This document shows, piece after piece, positions 10,340 to 58,446 of a DNA stretch of 64,000 nucleotides. The DNA comes from Pseudanabaena sp. PCC 6802 (lineage in GTDB: Bacteria > Cyanobacteriota > Cyanobacteriia > Pseudanabaenales > Pseudanabaenaceae), in assembly GCF_000332175.1 (NCBI RefSeq), contig NZ_KB235914.1, positions 565,966 to 629,965 on the forward strand, read 5' to 3'. The stretch's first letter is position 1, and each line of letters opens with the position of its first letter. The notes below the pieces were generated by a model. That model was not told where the DNA came from, made no database searches, and saw only the letters and a list, made by a program, of their open reading frames with translations. Both the position numbers and the translations under genes were made by a program.

Positions 10340-11851
10340 CTAGCTTGCGCTTTTGCCCATGTGGAAATAGGTATGGCAACTCTCATGAATCGCTAACAGG
10401 TTTTCTTTCTTCCAGTTGTTGTGGTTGCCATCGGCATGGTGGAGATGAACTCTTTCGTCCGATAATAATTTGTGACCGCAGGAAGCACATGAATGGTTTT
10501 GCCTTTTTAGGGCTTTAGAGGTTTGACCGTCATAGAGCTTGCTGTTTCGCTCACTCCAGTAGACCAAATCGCCATCAAAGGGAGATTTATTTCCTCTGAC
10601 ATTTACGTGTTTGTTTTCAGAGTAAGGAACAGATGGGAATGCTTTCTCAATCAACTGCTTGGTTGAGTATCGATCCTGCTTCTTCTCCTGATTGAATACC
10701 TTCCATGCCCTGTGACTGATGTGCCATAGGCTATGCTTAGCCCCATCCATCTTGCAGTACCTGTGGTATCTCCTCCATCCTCTCACGAGCGGCGCTAGCT
10801 TTTGAGCTTTCACCTCTGCACCATAGTTTGAGTTGTTGACTATGGCTTTGACTTTCTTGCGGAAAGCTTTGTAGTTGTCCACTGAAGGGAAACTTCTAAA
10901 CTTGCCGTTGTTTTGGACTTTAAAGTGCCAACCGAGAAAATCAAATCCATCTGTCGTTGCGGTTAGCTGCGTTTTGTTTTGGCTAATGTTCATGCCTCGT
11001 TTGGCAAGGAACTGGCTGATTTTGACCAGTATCAAGTCTGCGTTGTCTTCTGGCTTGAGCATAAACACCATATCATCAGCATAGCGGATGGATGGATGCA
11101 TATCTTCTATGCCATTTAGGGCAATGTTCGCTAATAGAGGACTGACCACTCCGCCTTGAGGCGTTCCTTGTTCAGGAAATTCAACACTGGTTCCTGCTTT
11201 TAGGCATCGGAATATGCCGAGCTTTAGCCCTGATGGGGCAATTAGGTTGTCCATTATTGCTTTGTGGTTGATGCGGTCGAAGCATGTTTCGATATCAAGC
11301 TCAATCACTCTTTTACCTATGCCATTGCTTCTGGAGCTTAAATTGTTGAACAAAAGTCTCTGGGCATCATGTGCCGAGCGTCCTGGTCTAAATCCATAGC
11401 TCCTAGCATGGAAGGTTGCTTCGTGTGCTGGTTCTAAGGCGAACTTAGCCAGACATTGCCATGCTCTGTCTGCGATTGTAGGCACCTTGAGCATTCGAGT
11501 TGTGCCGTCCTTTTTTGGGATGGCGATTTCTCGTAAACTTTGGTGCTGCCAAGTGGTAAAGTTAGCCCTAAGTTTATCACTTAGGTTTAAGCGTTCTTCA
11601 CTTGTGAGGGACGCTTTGCCGTCAATTCCCGCAGTCTTTTTCCCAGCGTTTAGCTGGGTTACTTGCCGTATTGCCAATAGGATTGCCGCTTGCGATTTTA
11701 CGATTAGCTTTTGCAGTGAACGGGCTTTCCGCTTGTCTCCAACTGTAACGGCTTTGTAAACTCTTCTTTGTAGCCGGAATAGGTCTTTGCGGAATTTCTT
11801 CCAGTTTAACTTCTTCCAAGATTCACTCGCATTGCTGCTGTGTCTAATCAT
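10340..11851 (-). CDS. ltrA: group II intron reverse transcriptase/maturase with HNH endonuclease
   Basis: ATG 11851 is preceded by GGAG at 8-9 bases and gives 503 residues; the longer frame upstream is ribozyme sequence. Reverse-transcriptase motifs include KKDGTTRMLKVPT, SYGFRPGRSAHDA, ELDIETCFDRINH, TPQGGVVSPLLANI and the catalytic YADD. Domain X (maturase) follows, with LVRGWRRYHRYC. The C-terminus is an HNH nuclease zinc finger: CASCG, HLHHADGNHNNW, HESCH. All catalytic residues appear intact, so the intron may still be mobile and able to splice. Confidence 0.93.
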   Translation of the reverse strand: MIRHSSNASESWKKLNWKKFRKDLFRLQRRVYKAVTVGDKRKARSLQKLIVKSQAAILLAIRQVTQLNAGKKTAGIDGKASLTSEERLNLSDKLRANFTTWQHQSLREIAIPKKDGTTRMLKVPTIADRAWQCLAKFALEPAHEATFHARSYGFRPGRSAHDAQRLLFNNLSSRSNGIGKRVIELDIETCFDRINHKAIMDNLIAPSGLKLGIFRCLKAGTSVEFPEQGTPQGGVVSPLLANIALNGIEDMHPSIRYADDMVFMLKPEDNADLILVKISQFLAKRGMNISQNKTQLTATTDGFDFLGWHFKVQNNGKFRSFPSVDNYKAFRKKVKAIVNNSNYGAEVKAQKLAPLVRGWRRYHRYCKMDGAKHSLWHISHRAWKVFNQEKKQDRYSTKQLIEKAFPSVPYSENKHVNVRGNKSPFDGDLVYWSERNSKLYDGQTSKALKRQNHSCASCGHKLLSDERVHLHHADGNHNNWKKENLLAIHESCHTYFHMGKSAS

Positions 11852-12412
11852 GGTCTGCTCCAATTTGTTTATTCTGAATACCTCGGGGCAATTACGCCCC
11901 GTCCTACCCGTTTCTGAGGGCTTACTCCTCTCGTCCGGTCTACCGTGAATTCGACTTTTCACAGACCTCAGATCCGTTTTTATTCGTTCCGCCCCTATGA
12001 TGGTTTTGTTCCTTTAGGTGTAGCCATTTTGACCGCCAGAACCCCTTACTCTTGCTGCTACTATACGAATGGTGCAGCGGGATACTAATCTCTGACAGGG
12101 TCAGACTTTCGGGCGTTGCGTCTGCCTCTACGTAGGTCACTTTTTTAGGCTCTGTTTCACCTTGGCAACTCCCCTTTAGCGCCAGTGTCATCTGCAACTG
12201 ATGTCTGATTGCGCCCTGCTCCCAGCTTTGACCTCCCGAATTCCGAGTCGGGTCATCATGGGCAGATAGGGATTCACATCTGAGTTTGATGGGAAGGGCT
12301 TTCACCTTCATCATTGGGGCAGTTCAGCTCTTTGGGTGCTTCATGTCTTGCAGCCAAGCTGGTAAGGTTATTTACGGACTGGCTACCGTGATTCCCTTAC
12401 AACGAATCGCAC

Positions 12413-20867: not shown

Positions 20868-22351
20868 CTGGAGTTTAGACTAAAAAGTGGTAAAAAGCAG
20901 CCAGCCATTGCAGACTGACCGCTTGATGATGGAAGCTGAAAAGACTATAAAATCAACAGCTTCATCATGATTAGTTTGGATAAACTTGAGCAATTTCGCA
21001 AGTACACGTACGAAATTATAGGGAACGGGAGAGATGCGCTGTTCGACTTGATGGATGCGGTACTGACGAGTCGGAGTGTTTCATCGTTTGTGGAACTTTC
21101 GTTAAGCCCATTATTTCGGAGGGAGTGGTCGAGTATCTATGAAGCACTGCAAGATAGTCATCCTCCACGTGAAGACTTGATGAAGCAATACATACAGCAA
21201 ATGCCGGCAGCAGAGGTGACGATATTGGCGGGCGACCATACAGCCTGGTCGCGTCCCTATGCGGTGACATTACAAGAACGCACCTACGAACATCAACCTC
21301 AACCGGGAGTAGGAAGCAAACCTGTTACGGTGGGGCAAGGATACAGCACAATTGCCTGGATTCCAGAGTCAGAAGGGAGTTTTGCCTTACCGTTGCGGCA
21401 TGAGCGGATCACCAGTTTCGAGAACCCGATTCAGAAAGCCGCTAGTCAGTTACGCTTGGTTTGTGCGGAAATTCCTGGGACTGTGCTTTTCCTGGGGGAT
21501 GGCGAGTATGGGTGCGCACCATTTTTGCAGCAAACAGCAGACATCCCGTGTATCAAGCTGCTCAGGCTACGCCCCAACCGGGTTCTGTATCATGCCCCAA
21601 AGGATTACGAGGGGCATGGGCGACCCCATAAGCATGGAGAGAAATTTAGCCTCAAAGACTCTGACACTTGGTCTATTCCCCAAGCAGACATCACAATTGC
21701 AGAGCCTAAACTGGGACGATTGCAAATTCGTCGATGGCCAAACCTGCACTTAAAGCAAGCCGCAGACCATCCCTTTACACTCATTCTGGTCGAACGTCTT
21801 GATATGCCTGAATCGAAACCCCTGTGGTTGATTTGGGTCGCTAAAGACGAGCCAATCTTGAGTGAGGTATGGCAAAAATATCTGCGCAGATTTGCCATTG
21901 AGCATTGGTATCGCTTGGTGCGTCAACGTCTCCATTGGACAATCCCTCAGCTTTCTACCCCTGCTCAGATGGAGACTTGGTCGGACTTGATGCCTTTACT
22001 TACTTGGCAATTGTGGCTCGCTCGTGAACTTGTCCAAGACTCTCCTCTGCCTTGGCAGAAACCGATGACTAAATTGTCTCCTGGTCGAGTTGCAAATGCT
22101 TTTGCTTTAGTTTTGGTCAGGATTGGCTCTCCTTCCCCTGACCCTAAACCTCGCGGTAAGTCTCCAGGTTGGCCTCTTGGGAAAAAACGAACCCAACGGA
22201 TTCGTTATCCTACTGTCAAAAAACGCTATGCCAAGCCCCTCAAAAAAGCTTCCGCTGCAACTGCTTAGCTCAACTTCTTCCCTTTTATCCTCTCTCTCGC
22301 TAGTTTCTATCTAGCGAGATGCTTCTTGTTGCCTTTTAGTCTAAACTCCAG
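20868..22351 (+). mobile_element. IS701-like (DDE_5-type) element, intact copy
   Basis: 1,484 bp with 13-bp perfect terminal inverted repeats (CTGGAGTTTAGAC and GTCTAAACTCCAG) and a 6-bp target duplication TAATTT (20862-20867, 22352-22357). The second copy at 38396-39880 has the same ends and its own 6-bp duplication TAGTAA. Confidence 0.92.
20967..22268 (+). CDS. IS701-like DDE transposase, intact
   Basis: 433 residues. DDE signature: EVTILAGDHTAWSRPYAVTL (first Asp), GTVLFLGDGEYGCAPFLQQT (second Asp), RRFAIEHWYRLVRQRLHW (Glu within an E..YR-like helix). The C-terminal tail is very basic (WPLGKKRTQRIRYPTVKKRY), probably DNA-binding. Two-fold presence in the window with almost identical DNA implies recent transposition. 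Family naming (IS701 versus another IS4-related group) is uncertain. Confidence 0.88.
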   Translation: MISLDKLEQFRKYTYEIIGNGRDALFDLMDAVLTSRSVSSFVELSLSPLFRREWSSIYEALQDSHPPREDLMKQYIQQMPAAEVTILAGDHTAWSRPYAVTLQERTYEHQPQPGVGSKPVTVGQGYSTIAWIPESEGSFALPLRHERITSFENPIQKAASQLRLVCAEIPGTVLFLGDGEYGCAPFLQQTADIPCIKLLRLRPNRVLYHAPKDYEGHGRPHKHGEKFSLKDSDTWSIPQADITIAEPKLGRLQIRRWPNLHLKQAADHPFTLILVERLDMPESKPLWLIWVAKDEPILSEVWQKYLRRFAIEHWYRLVRQRLHWTIPQLSTPAQMETWSDLMPLLTWQLWLARELVQDSPLPWQKPMTKLSPGRVANAFALVLVRIGSPSPDPKPRGKSPGWPLGKKRTQRIRYPTVKKRYAKPLKKASAATA

Positions 22352-38395: not shown

Positions 38396-39880
38396 CTGGA
38401 GTTTAGACTAAAAAGTGGTAAAAAGCAGCCAGCCATTGCAGACTGACCGCTTGATGATGGAAGCTGAAAAGACTATAAAATCAACAGCTTCATCATGATT
38501 AGTTTGGATAAACTTGAGCAATTTCGCAAGTACACGTACGAAATTATAGGGAACGGGAGAGATGCGCTGTTCGACTTGATGGATGCGGTACTGACGAGTC
38601 GGAGTGTTTCATCGTTTGTGGAACTTTCGTTAAGCCCATTATTTCGGAGGGAGTGGTCGAGTATCTATGAAGCACTGCAAGATAGTCATCCTCCACGTGA
38701 AGACTTGATGAAGCAATACATACAGCAAATGCCGGCAGCAGAGGTGACGATATTGGCGGGCGACCATACAGCCTGGTCGCGTCCCTATGCGGTGACATTA
38801 CAAGAACGCACCTACGAACATCAACCTCAACCGGGAGTAGGAAGCAAACCTGTTACGGTGGGGCAAGGATACAGCACAATTGCCTGGATTCCAGAGTCAG
38901 AAGGGAGTTTTGCCTTACCGTTGCGGCATGAGCGGATCACCAGTTTCGAGAACCCGATTCAGAAAGCCGCTAGTCAGTTACGCTTGGTTTGTGCGGAAAT
39001 TCCTGGGACTGTGCTTTTCCTGGGGGATGGCGAGTATGGGTGCGCACCATTTTTGCAGCAAACAGCAGACATCCCGTGTATCAAGCTGCTCAGGCTACGC
39101 CCCAACCGGGTTCTGTATCATGCCCCAAAGGATTACGAGGGGCATGGGCGACCCCATAAGCATGGAGAGAAATTTAGCCTCAAAGACTCTGACACTTGGT
39201 CTATTCCCCAAGCAGACATCACAATTGCAGAGCCTAAACTGGGACGATTGCAAATTCGTCGATGGCCAAACCTGCACTTAAAGCAAGCCGCAGACCATCC
39301 CTTTACACTCATTCTGGTCGAACGTCTTGATATGCCTGAATCGAAACCCCTGTGGTTGATTTGGGTCGCTAAAGACGAGCCAATCTTGAGTGAGGTATGG
39401 CAAAAATATCTGCGCAGATTTGCCATTGAGCATTGGTATCGCTTGGTGCGTCAACGTCTCCATTGGACAATCCCTCAGCTTTCTACCCCTGCTCAGATGG
39501 AGACTTGGTCGGACTTGATGCCTTTACTTACTTGGCAATTGTGGCTCGCTCGTGAACTTGTCCAAGACTCCTCCTCTGCCTTGGCAGAAACCGATGACTA
39601 AATTGTCTCCTGGTCGAGTTGCAAATGCTTTTGCTTTAGTTTTGGTCAGGATTGGCTCTCCTTCCCCTGACCCTAAACCTCGCGGTAAGTCTCCAGGTTG
39701 GCCTCTTGGGAAAAAACGAACCCAACGGATTCGTTATCCTACTGTCAAAAAACGCTATGCCAAGCCCCTCAAAAAAGCTTCCGCTGCAACTGCTTAGCTC
39801 AACTTCTTCCCTTTTATCCTCTCTCTCGCTAGTTTCTATCTAGCGAGATGCTTCTTGTTGCCTTTTAGTCTAAACTCCAG
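38396..39880 (+). mobile_element. IS701-like element, second copy (1-bp longer)
   Basis: Same 13-bp ends as 20868-22351, 1,485 bp, and flanked by its own 6-bp duplication TAGTAA (38390-38395, 39881-39886). The sequence appears otherwise identical to copy 1 apart from one inserted C near 39571. Confidence 0.92.
38495..39797 (+). pseudogene. IS701-like transposase, frameshifted copy
   Basis: Identical to the 433-residue protein of 20967-22268 up to residue ~358 (WLARELVQDS). There GACTCTCCTC has become GACTCCTCCTC, an extra C that leads to a stop at 39601. The lost basic C-terminus (WPLGKKRTQRIRYPTVKKRY) is still encoded in the shifted frame to 39797. All three catalytic acidic residues lie before the lesion. 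Confidence 0.92.
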
Positions 39881-55167: not shown

Positions 55168-56679
55168 TTACAGATCCTGTAGTTGTTCCTTCAAAAGTCG
55201 ATCTTGTTCTAGATCTTGCAGAAACTGTTCGTAGAAATCGCGAGCAGCTTTTTCAATTACGTCGTAGGCTTCGACCGGCTCTAGTCCTGCTGCCCGCAAT
55301 TCTGTCTGCGGACAACTGCCAATCTTGGAAGCTATGACAGCCCGACAATCAGAGATTGTCTTAATGATATTTTCTAGAGTTGCTTCCTCTCCATATCCAC
55401 TTTGGCAATAGTGGTCGACCTTACGGTGCCCGACAAAACGAATATTATTGACATCCACTTCGTAGATTTGGAATTCTTTAGCGTGACCGAAGTGCTGGTT
55501 GACGATACCGCCGCCTTTTGTCGCCACTGCCACCATGATTTTGGGACTGTTCTCTGTTGCAGAGCGATCGCCCGATCCTCTTTTTGCTTTGGCTTTGACA
55601 GACTTCAGATCGTCTTTAAACTGCTCAATACCAGCATGAACCTCTTTACGCACTTCAACGTCGTATTCAGGAGCCATCTCCATGAATTTCTCTTTGGTAA
55701 ATTCTTGACTGCGGTCTTCTCCTAACAGTCCCACTGCATCTGCGCGGCACTGGCGACAGTGACGCATCATATTCATATTGCCCGAGCAACTGTCTTGCAA
55801 TTCCTTTAGCTCTTTTGGCGTAGGTCCTCGTTGTCCAGTAAGGCCAAAGTGAGTGCCGTGCTCTGGAGCAGAAATTAGAGGCATGATGTTGTGGAGGAAA
55901 GCACCGTGCGAACGAATTACTTCATTGACTTCAGCCAGGTGCTTGTCGTTGATGCCCGGAATCATTACCGAGTTAACTTTGCAAAGGATATCTGCCTCTT
56001 TAAGGGCTTGCAATCCTTCCATTTGACGTTCGTGGAGAATTTTAGCAGCTTCTACACCCGTATGGCGTTTGCGATTGAAGCGCACCCAAGGGTAGATCTT
56101 TGCACCAATCTCCGGATCTACCATATTGATCGTGATCGTAACGTGATCGACATTTAGTTGTTTGATCCGATCTACGTGGTCGGTTAGTGCCAGGCCATTT
56201 GTTGATAGGCACAGCTTGATATCTGGTGCTTTATCTGCAATTAGTTCAAAGGTGCGGAAAGTTTTTTCGGGATTAGCCAGTGGGTCTCCAGGGCCAGCAA
56301 TACCTAAGACGCTCATTTGAGGAATTTTGCCGGCAATTACCAATACTTTATGAGCCGCTTCTTCTGGAGTTAAAAGCTCGCTCACAACTCCAGGACGACT
56401 TTCGTTCGCGCAGTCATATTTGCGGTTGCAGTAATTGCACTGAATATTACAAGCCGGTGCGACAGCAACGTGCATGCGAGCGTAGTGATGATGGGCTTCT
56501 TCGCTATAGCATGGATGTTTTGCAATCCGCTCTTTTAGTCTTTCATCTAGCCCTTCTGTTTTAGTGCCGCAGCCTGAAGAGGCACAACCGCTGGTTTTCT
56601 TCTCAGCTTCAGTTGAAGATACGTTTATGCCAGACTTTGCTAGCAAATCTAGCGCTGATGTTTTTTCTGTAGCTTGCAT
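55168..56679 (-). CDS. nifB: nitrogenase cofactor biosynthesis radical SAM protein NifB
   Basis: 503 residues from ATG 56679 ([20 protein letters not shown]). The radical-SAM triad [14 protein letters not shown] is at about residue 75-90, preceded by [21 protein letters not shown] NifX-like cofactor-binding domain forms the C-terminus ([20 protein letters not shown]). NifB makes NifB-co, the carbide-containing 8Fe core. It is the first gene of the leftward nif transcript. A longer reading frame to 56739 is not favoured. Confidence 0.97.
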
Positions 56680-56934
56680 TGAATTCCCTTGAGTAATGTG
56701 GACGACACCGCAGTGATGCAAGTGAGGGCATCTAAACACTTCAGCTACCAGGACGCAATTGAATATTGTTCTGTATTGAAGACTAAGTGTTCGAGCGGCT
56801 TGTTAAGTAGGTTATATCAGTAGGCCAATGAAGGGAATTTCCAAGAGCGCAAATCAGAGTTATTGATATATTAAGGATGTACTCAATAGATAAAATCTTT
56901 GACCTGCAAGCATTCCAAAAATATTTTGGGATAA

Positions 56935-56970
56935 GGGTACTGGTATTTTTGCGAATGGGTTCTAGTATTT
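56935..56970 (-). promoter_or_regulatory. two phased AAATAC-type operator motifs upstream of nifB
   Basis: On the minus strand AAATACTAGAACCC (56970-56957) and AAATACCAGTACCC (56948-56935) start exactly 22 bases apart, 255-290 bases before the nifB ATG. The same motif in the opposite orientation precedes nifP. This points to one activator serving both; CnfR is the known activator of nifB and nifP promoters in Leptolyngbya boryana, but binding here is inferred. Confidence 0.6.
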
Positions 56971-57122
56971 TCGCATGGGGGGGCTTGCATTTCTGTACTC
57001 AGGCAAAACCCAGTCCTAGCATAGATTTGACTGGATTTTCATGCATCTCTCGCAAATCGCGATTTAGTACTCAAAATAAGGAAAAGACTGGAGCAGACTC
57101 ACTTAATTTCTACTCCAGGGAA

Positions 57123-57274
57123 GATACAGAAAATTTTTCTGTATCTAAAATAGCACTTTTTGAATTTAATGCAAGAAAATTTTTGAACTTTTGATGACAG
57201 ACCGTATCAACCTCAAACTTCAGAGAAGTTATAAAAATATTTTCTGTATCTAATGTAGCATTTTGGGAACTTAA
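57123..57274. repeat. palindrome and direct repeat in the nifB-nifP control region
   Basis: AGATACAGAAAA (57123-57134) and TTTTCTGTATCT (57136-57147) form a 12-bp-arm palindrome. The right arm begins a 35-base sequence (TTTTCTGTATCTAA..TAGCA) that recurs in direct orientation at 57240-57274, 104 bases on. Nothing else of known type is seen in this AT-rich stretch. Confidence 0.65.
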
Positions 57275-57279
57275 GTGTT

Positions 57280-57320
57280 AAAGTAGAACCGTTTGATTGA
57301 GACCTGGTATATGTTGCTAC
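57280..57320 (-). promoter_or_regulatory. NtcA box with phased -10 element
   Basis: GTA-N8-TAC is perfect at 57307-57320 (GTATATGTTGCTAC). On the minus strand a TACTTT -10 element follows after 21 bases (57285-57280), close to the class II NtcA promoter spacing (N22, TAN3T). It would start a transcript with a leader of about 600 bases before nifB. The palindromic box could also act on nifP, 340 bases to the right. Confidence 0.6.
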
Positions 57321-57437
57321 AAACCTACTAAAAAATATTCCATAAAGCAAGTATGTGAGTACATTTTTAATCTTCTCAAAACAGATATAAAGAAAATGTT
57401 AAGCCCTTATCTGGTATGGGTTAGGGGATGAGTACAT

Positions 57438-57500
57438 AAATACTCGTACCCTCACCTCCAAATACCTGTATCTCAAGTGTAAAATACTCGTACCCCCACC
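57438..57500 (+). promoter_or_regulatory. three 22-bp-phased operator motifs upstream of nifP
   Basis: AAATACTCGTACCCTCACC (57438), a weaker AAATACCTGTATCTCA (57460) and AAATACTCGTACCCCCACC (57482) begin at exact 22-base intervals, two helical turns. The array ends 160 bases before the nifP ATG and is oriented towards it. A mirror-image pair lies upstream of nifB. Confidence 0.65.
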
Positions 57501-57660
57501 CAAAAAAATTCTCAAAAGCTTGATATTTTTGATTTGAGAAGCTTTGAGTACATTCTTAATAATTCTAATATCTTCAATCGAACCCAACGATCGCAATCGC
57601 AGCGGTGCCACCTGATATAAGCAGTAATAGCTATTTATACTGCACTTACACCGCAATTCC

Positions 57661-58446
57661 ATGTCACATCCTAATCTCGTCGCCAGTCCCAGTACATCTG
57701 CAACTAACTCTATGACAGAGAGTGGGGTGAATCGTATTTATTCACTCATGGATGATATTGACTTTGGCGATCGCATAGAGTCGGAAACTAATTCCCTACT
57801 CTCTACGGTCAAGACATTGCTGGTAGATTTTCGTATTATCTTTAAACGCGATCCCGCTGCCAAGAATTGGCTGGAAGTACTGTTCTGCTATCCAGGGCTG
57901 CATGCCCTGTTTATGCATCGCATTGCCCATTGGTTGCATAACCTCAGCATACCATTCATGCCGCGCTTGATGTCTCACCTCGCCCGCTTTTTGACAGGCA
58001 TCGAAATTCATCCCGGTGCCAAAATTGGGAGGGGTGTATTTATCGATCATGGTATGGGTGTCGTGATTGGAGAAACTGCGATCGTGGGAGATTTCGCGCT
58101 AATCTACCAGGGAGTAACCCTCGGTGGCACTGGCAAAGAAAGCGGTAAACGCCACCCTACCATCGGCAGGCATGTGGTTGTGGGTGCAGGAGCAAAAGTC
58201 TTAGGCAATATTCATATTGGCGATCGCGTCCGCGTAGGTGCTGGCTCCATCGTATTGCGGGACGTACCGACTGACTGCACGGTAGTGGGCGTACCGGGTC
58301 GCAATCTCTGCCGTTTGCCCGAGCGTTTTTGTCCGCTCGAACACGGACAAATGCCCGATGCCGAAGCTAGTGTAATTCGCGCCTTATTGGAACGGGTTGA
58401 ACAGCTAGAGCGACAACTGCAAACCCTAACTAATGAGAAGAATTGA
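57661..58446 (+). CDS. nifP: serine O-acetyltransferase, nif-associated
   Basis: 261 residues of the CysE family. The N-terminal helical domain has [20 protein letters not shown] and [19 protein letters not shown]. The hexapeptide left-handed helix follows ([51 protein letters not shown]). It makes O-acetylserine for cysteine, the sulfur source for NifS. It heads the rightward nif genes opposite nifB. It has about 30 more N-terminal residues than housekeeping CysE; an internal ATG at residue 18 is a possible alternative start. Confidence 0.93.

Follow-up and report, generated by a model that had tools for sequence, protein, structure and literature searches.

CnfR is the master switch of cyanobacterial nitrogen fixation, and its promoters are the ones for transfer into plants or non-diazotrophs. 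A set of nine cis-acting motifs that ends some 76 bp upstream of the start site and is conserved among diazotrophic cyanobacteria was reportedly described by Tsujimoto, Kamiya and Fujita in 2016 (Mol Microbiol). The nifB and nifP promoters of Leptolyngbya boryana are activated by CnfR, which recognises motifs I-IX (PMC5943405). In Anabaena variabilis, the nifB1 and nifB2 promoters carry the conserved upstream sites CS1-CS3 and have an extended -10 but no -35 (PMC8510180, PMC4284476). Loss of the first or second conserved site of nifB1 halved transcription and loss of both cut it by 75% (PMC8510180); a start site was placed at -328 (PMC4284476). We analyzed a 64,000-nucleotide stretch of the Pseudanabaena sp. 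PCC 6802 genome (contig NZ_KB235914.1, positions 565,966 to 629,965; 'the window' below), in which nifB and nifP are transcribed divergently. Comparison of sequences and gene content indicates that the region between them is very probably a back-to-back pair of CnfR-responsive nif promoters, a further member of the described CnfR cis-element.

The element lies upstream of both nifB and nifP and is like that of L. boryana in its genes, its divergent nifB/nifP layout, the presence of several upstream motifs and the proposed activation by CnfR, a likeness judged by description. The end reported for the L. boryana motifs fits the position of the proximal box described below, about 80 bp before the predicted start site. 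The order of genes downstream of nifP (an Asr1405 family gene, dpsA, nifV, nifZ and others) resembles the nifP-orf84-dpsA order of L. boryana. Features shared with A. variabilis nifB1 and nifB2 are the conserved elements upstream, the TGAGTATA motif and an extended -10 that lacks a -35. CS1-CS3 were described as separate sites, whereas we read the corresponding region here as one phased array plus two boxes; this comparison, too, was by description. In Nostocaceae relatives the predicted -10 lies 400-498 bp from the nifB start (with approximate start codons), which does not agree closely with the A. variabilis start site.

The first-pass annotation had reported a repeat unit at 57438, 57460 and 57482 before nifP on the plus strand, and at 56970-56957 and 56948-56935 before nifB on the minus strand. 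Re-reading the window sequence confirmed these coordinates, the 22-bp steps and the opposite orientations. The three nifP units are phased as claimed, but the middle one, at 57460, has two mismatches to the consensus then given, and the exact consensus therefore occurs twice, not three times, before nifP. The two nifB units are clear, but a third, degraded unit in phase with them had been overlooked; the layout is therefore 3+3 and not 3+2. The parts of the two promoters, followed by the two genes, are:

56994-57001, minus strand: nifB distal box TGAGTACA, read directly and kept at the equivalent place in relatives
56979-56992, minus strand: nifB unit 1, degraded, AAATGCAAGCCCCC, matching the paired pattern with one mismatch
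56957-56970, minus strand: nifB unit 2, AAATACTAGAACCC, from sequence reading
56935-56948, minus strand: nifB unit 3, AAATACCAGTACCC, from sequence reading
56917-56926, minus strand: nifB A/T tract AAATATTTTT in the fourth 22-bp slot, which is A/T-rich in relatives too
56869-56886, minus strand: nifB proximal box TTGAGTACATCCTTAATA, an inverted match to the nifP box
56811-56819, minus strand: nifB extended -10, TGATATAAC, 67 bp from the proximal box
57429-57436, plus strand: nifP distal box TGAGTACA, read directly
57438-57451, plus strand: nifP unit 1, AAATACTCGTACCC, from sequence reading
57460-57473, plus strand: nifP unit 2, AAATACCTGTATCT, two mismatches from the earlier consensus
57482-57495, plus strand: nifP unit 3, AAATACTCGTACCC, from sequence reading
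57544-57561, plus strand: nifP proximal box TTGAGTACATTCTTAATA, from sequence reading and relatives
57613-57621, plus strand: nifP extended -10, TGATATAAG, 69 bp from the proximal box
55168-56679, minus strand: nifB, first gene of a large nif operon (TIGR01290, E 2e-202)
57661-58446, plus strand: nifP, serine O-acetyltransferase (TIGR01172)

The array is one part of a larger composite promoter that is the same on both sides. Written in 22-base rows, each side reads distal TGAGTACA, units 1-3, an A/T tract, proximal TTGAGTACATYCTTAATA and an extended -10 (TGATATAA), the last lying downstream of the proximal box without a conserved -35 at either promoter. The first-pass annotation had missed this wider symmetry of distal box, proximal box and extended -10. 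The GAGTAC of the distal box and that of the proximal box are exactly 116 bp apart on both sides (57000 to 56884 for nifB, 57430 to 57546 for nifP). The proximal box has the general form TTGAGTACA-n4-TAAT, and its nifB and nifP copies are an inverted match at 94%. Start sites are predicted near 56804 for nifB and near 57628 for nifP. The nifP distal box and unit 1 together make an inverted repeat, GAGTA-CATAAA-TACTC (57430-57445), a hint that a single half-site may occur in one orientation as the TGAGTACA box and in the other as the TACTC part of each unit.

The 14-mer AAATACYNGWACCC has four exact matches in the window and none in each of 100 dinucleotide shuffles, and a pattern of two units paired at 22 bp likewise gave four matches against none in the shuffles. 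With at most one mismatch, the paired pattern occurs in the whole 5.6-Mb genome only at the nifB and nifP promoters; further matches need three mismatches and are as frequent as in the control. The proximal box alone, searched in the genome with up to three mismatches, gave 29 matches against 23 for its control and is too weak for finding further targets. Across Cyanobacteriota, 60 of 386 genomes carry the paired pattern, every one of them with both nifB and cnfR, and none of the 313 genomes lacking nifB has it (Fisher P 6e-58, kinship of the genomes ignored). The reversed control pattern matched in a single genome of the 386, making the pattern a specific means of finding CnfR targets.

Several motifs recur in both the nifB and the nifP promoters and across diazotrophic cyanobacteria, and relatives whose nifB and nifP are likewise divergent keep the repeat motif. 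Of 67 other nifB upstream regions, 53 contained two units 22 bp apart with a score of 23/26 or more. Alternative spacings from 14 to 40 bp were each found in at most two of the 67, except 21 bp (24 regions), likely because units 1 and 2 step by 21 bp in Nostocaceae. The comparison does not support the mirror layout as a separate feature. Nostocaceae have nifP and nifB at different places, and each of the two genes there is preceded by an array of its own; the array therefore belongs to the individual promoter, and the mirror simply results from two such promoters facing apart.

A candidate for the regulator lies about 1 kb beyond the end of the window (G000:C5:630952). This 526-amino-acid open reading frame combines a 4Fe-4S ferredoxin-like N-terminus (Fer4) with an XRE-type helix-turn-helix C-terminus (HTH_3), and full-length relatives that are 47-64% identical occur in other diazotrophic cyanobacteria; by its domains and relatives, the protein is CnfR, and the genome is one of 74 that are CnfR-positive. 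The proposal that the units are CnfR sites thus has strong circumstantial support in the neighboring cnfR gene, the complete co-occurrence and the conserved motif; what did not stand is the array as the whole of the operator, which proved only part of an already described element. Weighing against this reading, 13 of the 73 genomes with nifB lack the paired pattern at up to one mismatch. In five of these 13, however, NifB is distant (46-50% identity), and degraded arrays can be recognised in several of the others.

We considered that the units might bind another nitrogen or oxygen regulator, such as NtcA or a further XRE protein, with CnfR acting indirectly or only at the TGAGTACA boxes, and regard this as unlikely. 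Because the boxes do not share their sequence with the 22-bp units, each might be bound by a different protein. The array, however, tracks cnfR in all 60 genomes, whereas NtcA is general to cyanobacteria. The units are also unlike the NtcA site GTA-N8-TAC. A search of the fetched locus L001 for that site gave a single match, outside the array and at chance level; no NtcA site was found within the L001 array, which does not belong to the NtcA-site class. NtcA is needed for activation of nifB2 by CnfR1 (PMC8510180), but CnfR can activate the nifB and nifP promoters of L. boryana in the non-diazotroph Synechocystis 6803 (PMC5943405).

We surveyed the geometry in 102 nonredundant promoters by anchoring on the proximal box plus the extended -10 and then seeking the array, with thresholds of our own choosing. 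Unit 3 lay 59-64 bp from the proximal box in 58 promoters and 70-75 bp from it in 43, with none at 65-69 bp; the single outlier (82 bp, locus L080) has a poor array. The means of the two classes are 11 bp apart, roughly one turn of the helix and half of the 22-bp step. Placed on a NifB tree, the class switches at least eight times on the nifB side and at least four times on the nifP side, and of 50 loci where both promoters are present, 11 combine the two classes. This distribution was first seen in an initial set and recurred in two families fetched afterwards; the survey pools both and does not replicate the finding independently. From the proximal box to the extended -10 the distance is nearly fixed (65-71 bp, mostly 67-70 bp). 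A longer series of turn-length spacings, with offsets of 106 and 117 bp, was rejected as a register slip of one 22-bp unit, and we therefore claim only two spacing classes. That the classes lie one helical turn apart supports the earlier suggestion that the units occupy one face of the DNA.

The same phasing could mainly reflect intrinsic DNA shape, with A-tracts every two turns and C-tracts between them forming a pre-bent promoter whose units are not read individually by a protein. A-tracts do recur at 22 bp and the fourth A/T tract fills the next slot, but the letters of unit 3 outside the A-tracts are conserved beyond the needs of bending (the nifB side has T-A-C at 92-100% and the nifP side at 83-94%, with G at about 90% and C-C at 89-96%), and we consider this explanation very unlikely. 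Chance repeats, or shared ancestry without function, can be dismissed, for even though relatives are non-independent and inherit the nif cluster as one block, zero matches are expected in shuffles, the array is kept across deeply separated families with diverged spacers, the spacing jumps by a whole helical turn and conservation already contradicts the idea.

The -10 hexamer adds a further constraint. Its sixth base was left free in the survey and is never T in the 102 copies, being C or A at nifB (G in two) and G at nifP (A in five). Of the bases of a -10, the final T is among the two that matter most. The nifB and nifP promoters are therefore probably weak without an activator.

Together with CnfR as the regulator, these features suggest how the promoters might work. 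At low oxygen, CnfR would occupy the three units along one DNA face, contact the proximal box across a spacer of a whole number of turns, and recruit or activate RNA polymerase at the intrinsically weak promoter. We lean slightly towards a phased assembly of this kind, in which three CnfR subunits or dimers sit on one face and at the proximal box, the spacer changes by whole turns only and the lost final T of the -10 keeps the promoter inactive. Binding of the units and boxes by CnfR itself, the stoichiometry, and looping or stacking are what we infer. If such an assembly is true, activation of cyanobacterial nif genes would be a stereospecific multi-site mechanism and not a sigma-54/NifA-like one. 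The geometric description (three units at 22 bp, two boxes, a whole-turn spacer, a fixed distance to the -10 and no final T) opens mutagenesis tests of an Fe-S XRE activator. The element itself is not a new system; the one-turn spacing rule and the missing final T may be new, neither being found in the literature examined, which excludes the original 2016 description of the element. A text search of the literature for the TGAGTACA motif returned no relevant paper.

Other repeats were seen between nifB and nifP. An additional copy of the proximal box (TGAGTACATTTTTAAT, 57356-57371, 94% to 57545-57560) lies upstream of the array on the nifP side, with no array before it. A 58-bp direct repeat occupies the middle of the intergenic region (57112-57169 and 57217-57274; 78% identity, 105 bp apart), and its first copy contains the palindrome-like AGATACAGAAAATTTTTCTGTATCT.

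A third promoter built on this composite plan was observed at nine Nostocaceae loci (L255, L256, L259, L261, L265, L266, L268, L270 and L273), about 10-15 kb from cnfR in those for which the two coordinates were compared. Directly after its -10 is a nearly invariant leader, TATAGGATTTACGCAGAGATTCCCCTCTACCCCCC, which may be a conserved RNA; an Rfam search of the leader at four of the nine loci gave no match. The genes downstream are small (about 140, 87 and 103 amino acids), the first being membrane-like.

The genomes with a distant NifB (46-50% identity; G002, G066, G298, G116 and G213) have no array. The CnfR-like proteins of G002, G066 and G298 match only about residues 86-437, leaving the ferredoxin and helix-turn-helix ends unmatched; the CnfR match of G116 covers residues 50-512, and G213 has no CnfR. 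Neither nifB nor cnfR is present in the three sampled members of the window genome's own family (G193, G282 and G346), and the nif cluster may therefore have been lost there or gained here. Within the window are two near-identical transposase-like open reading frames (20967-22268 and 38495-39601) with the same starting protein sequence, the second shorter, and a reverse-transcriptase-like open reading frame (10340-11962). Together, these suggest mobile elements in the surroundings of the nif cluster.
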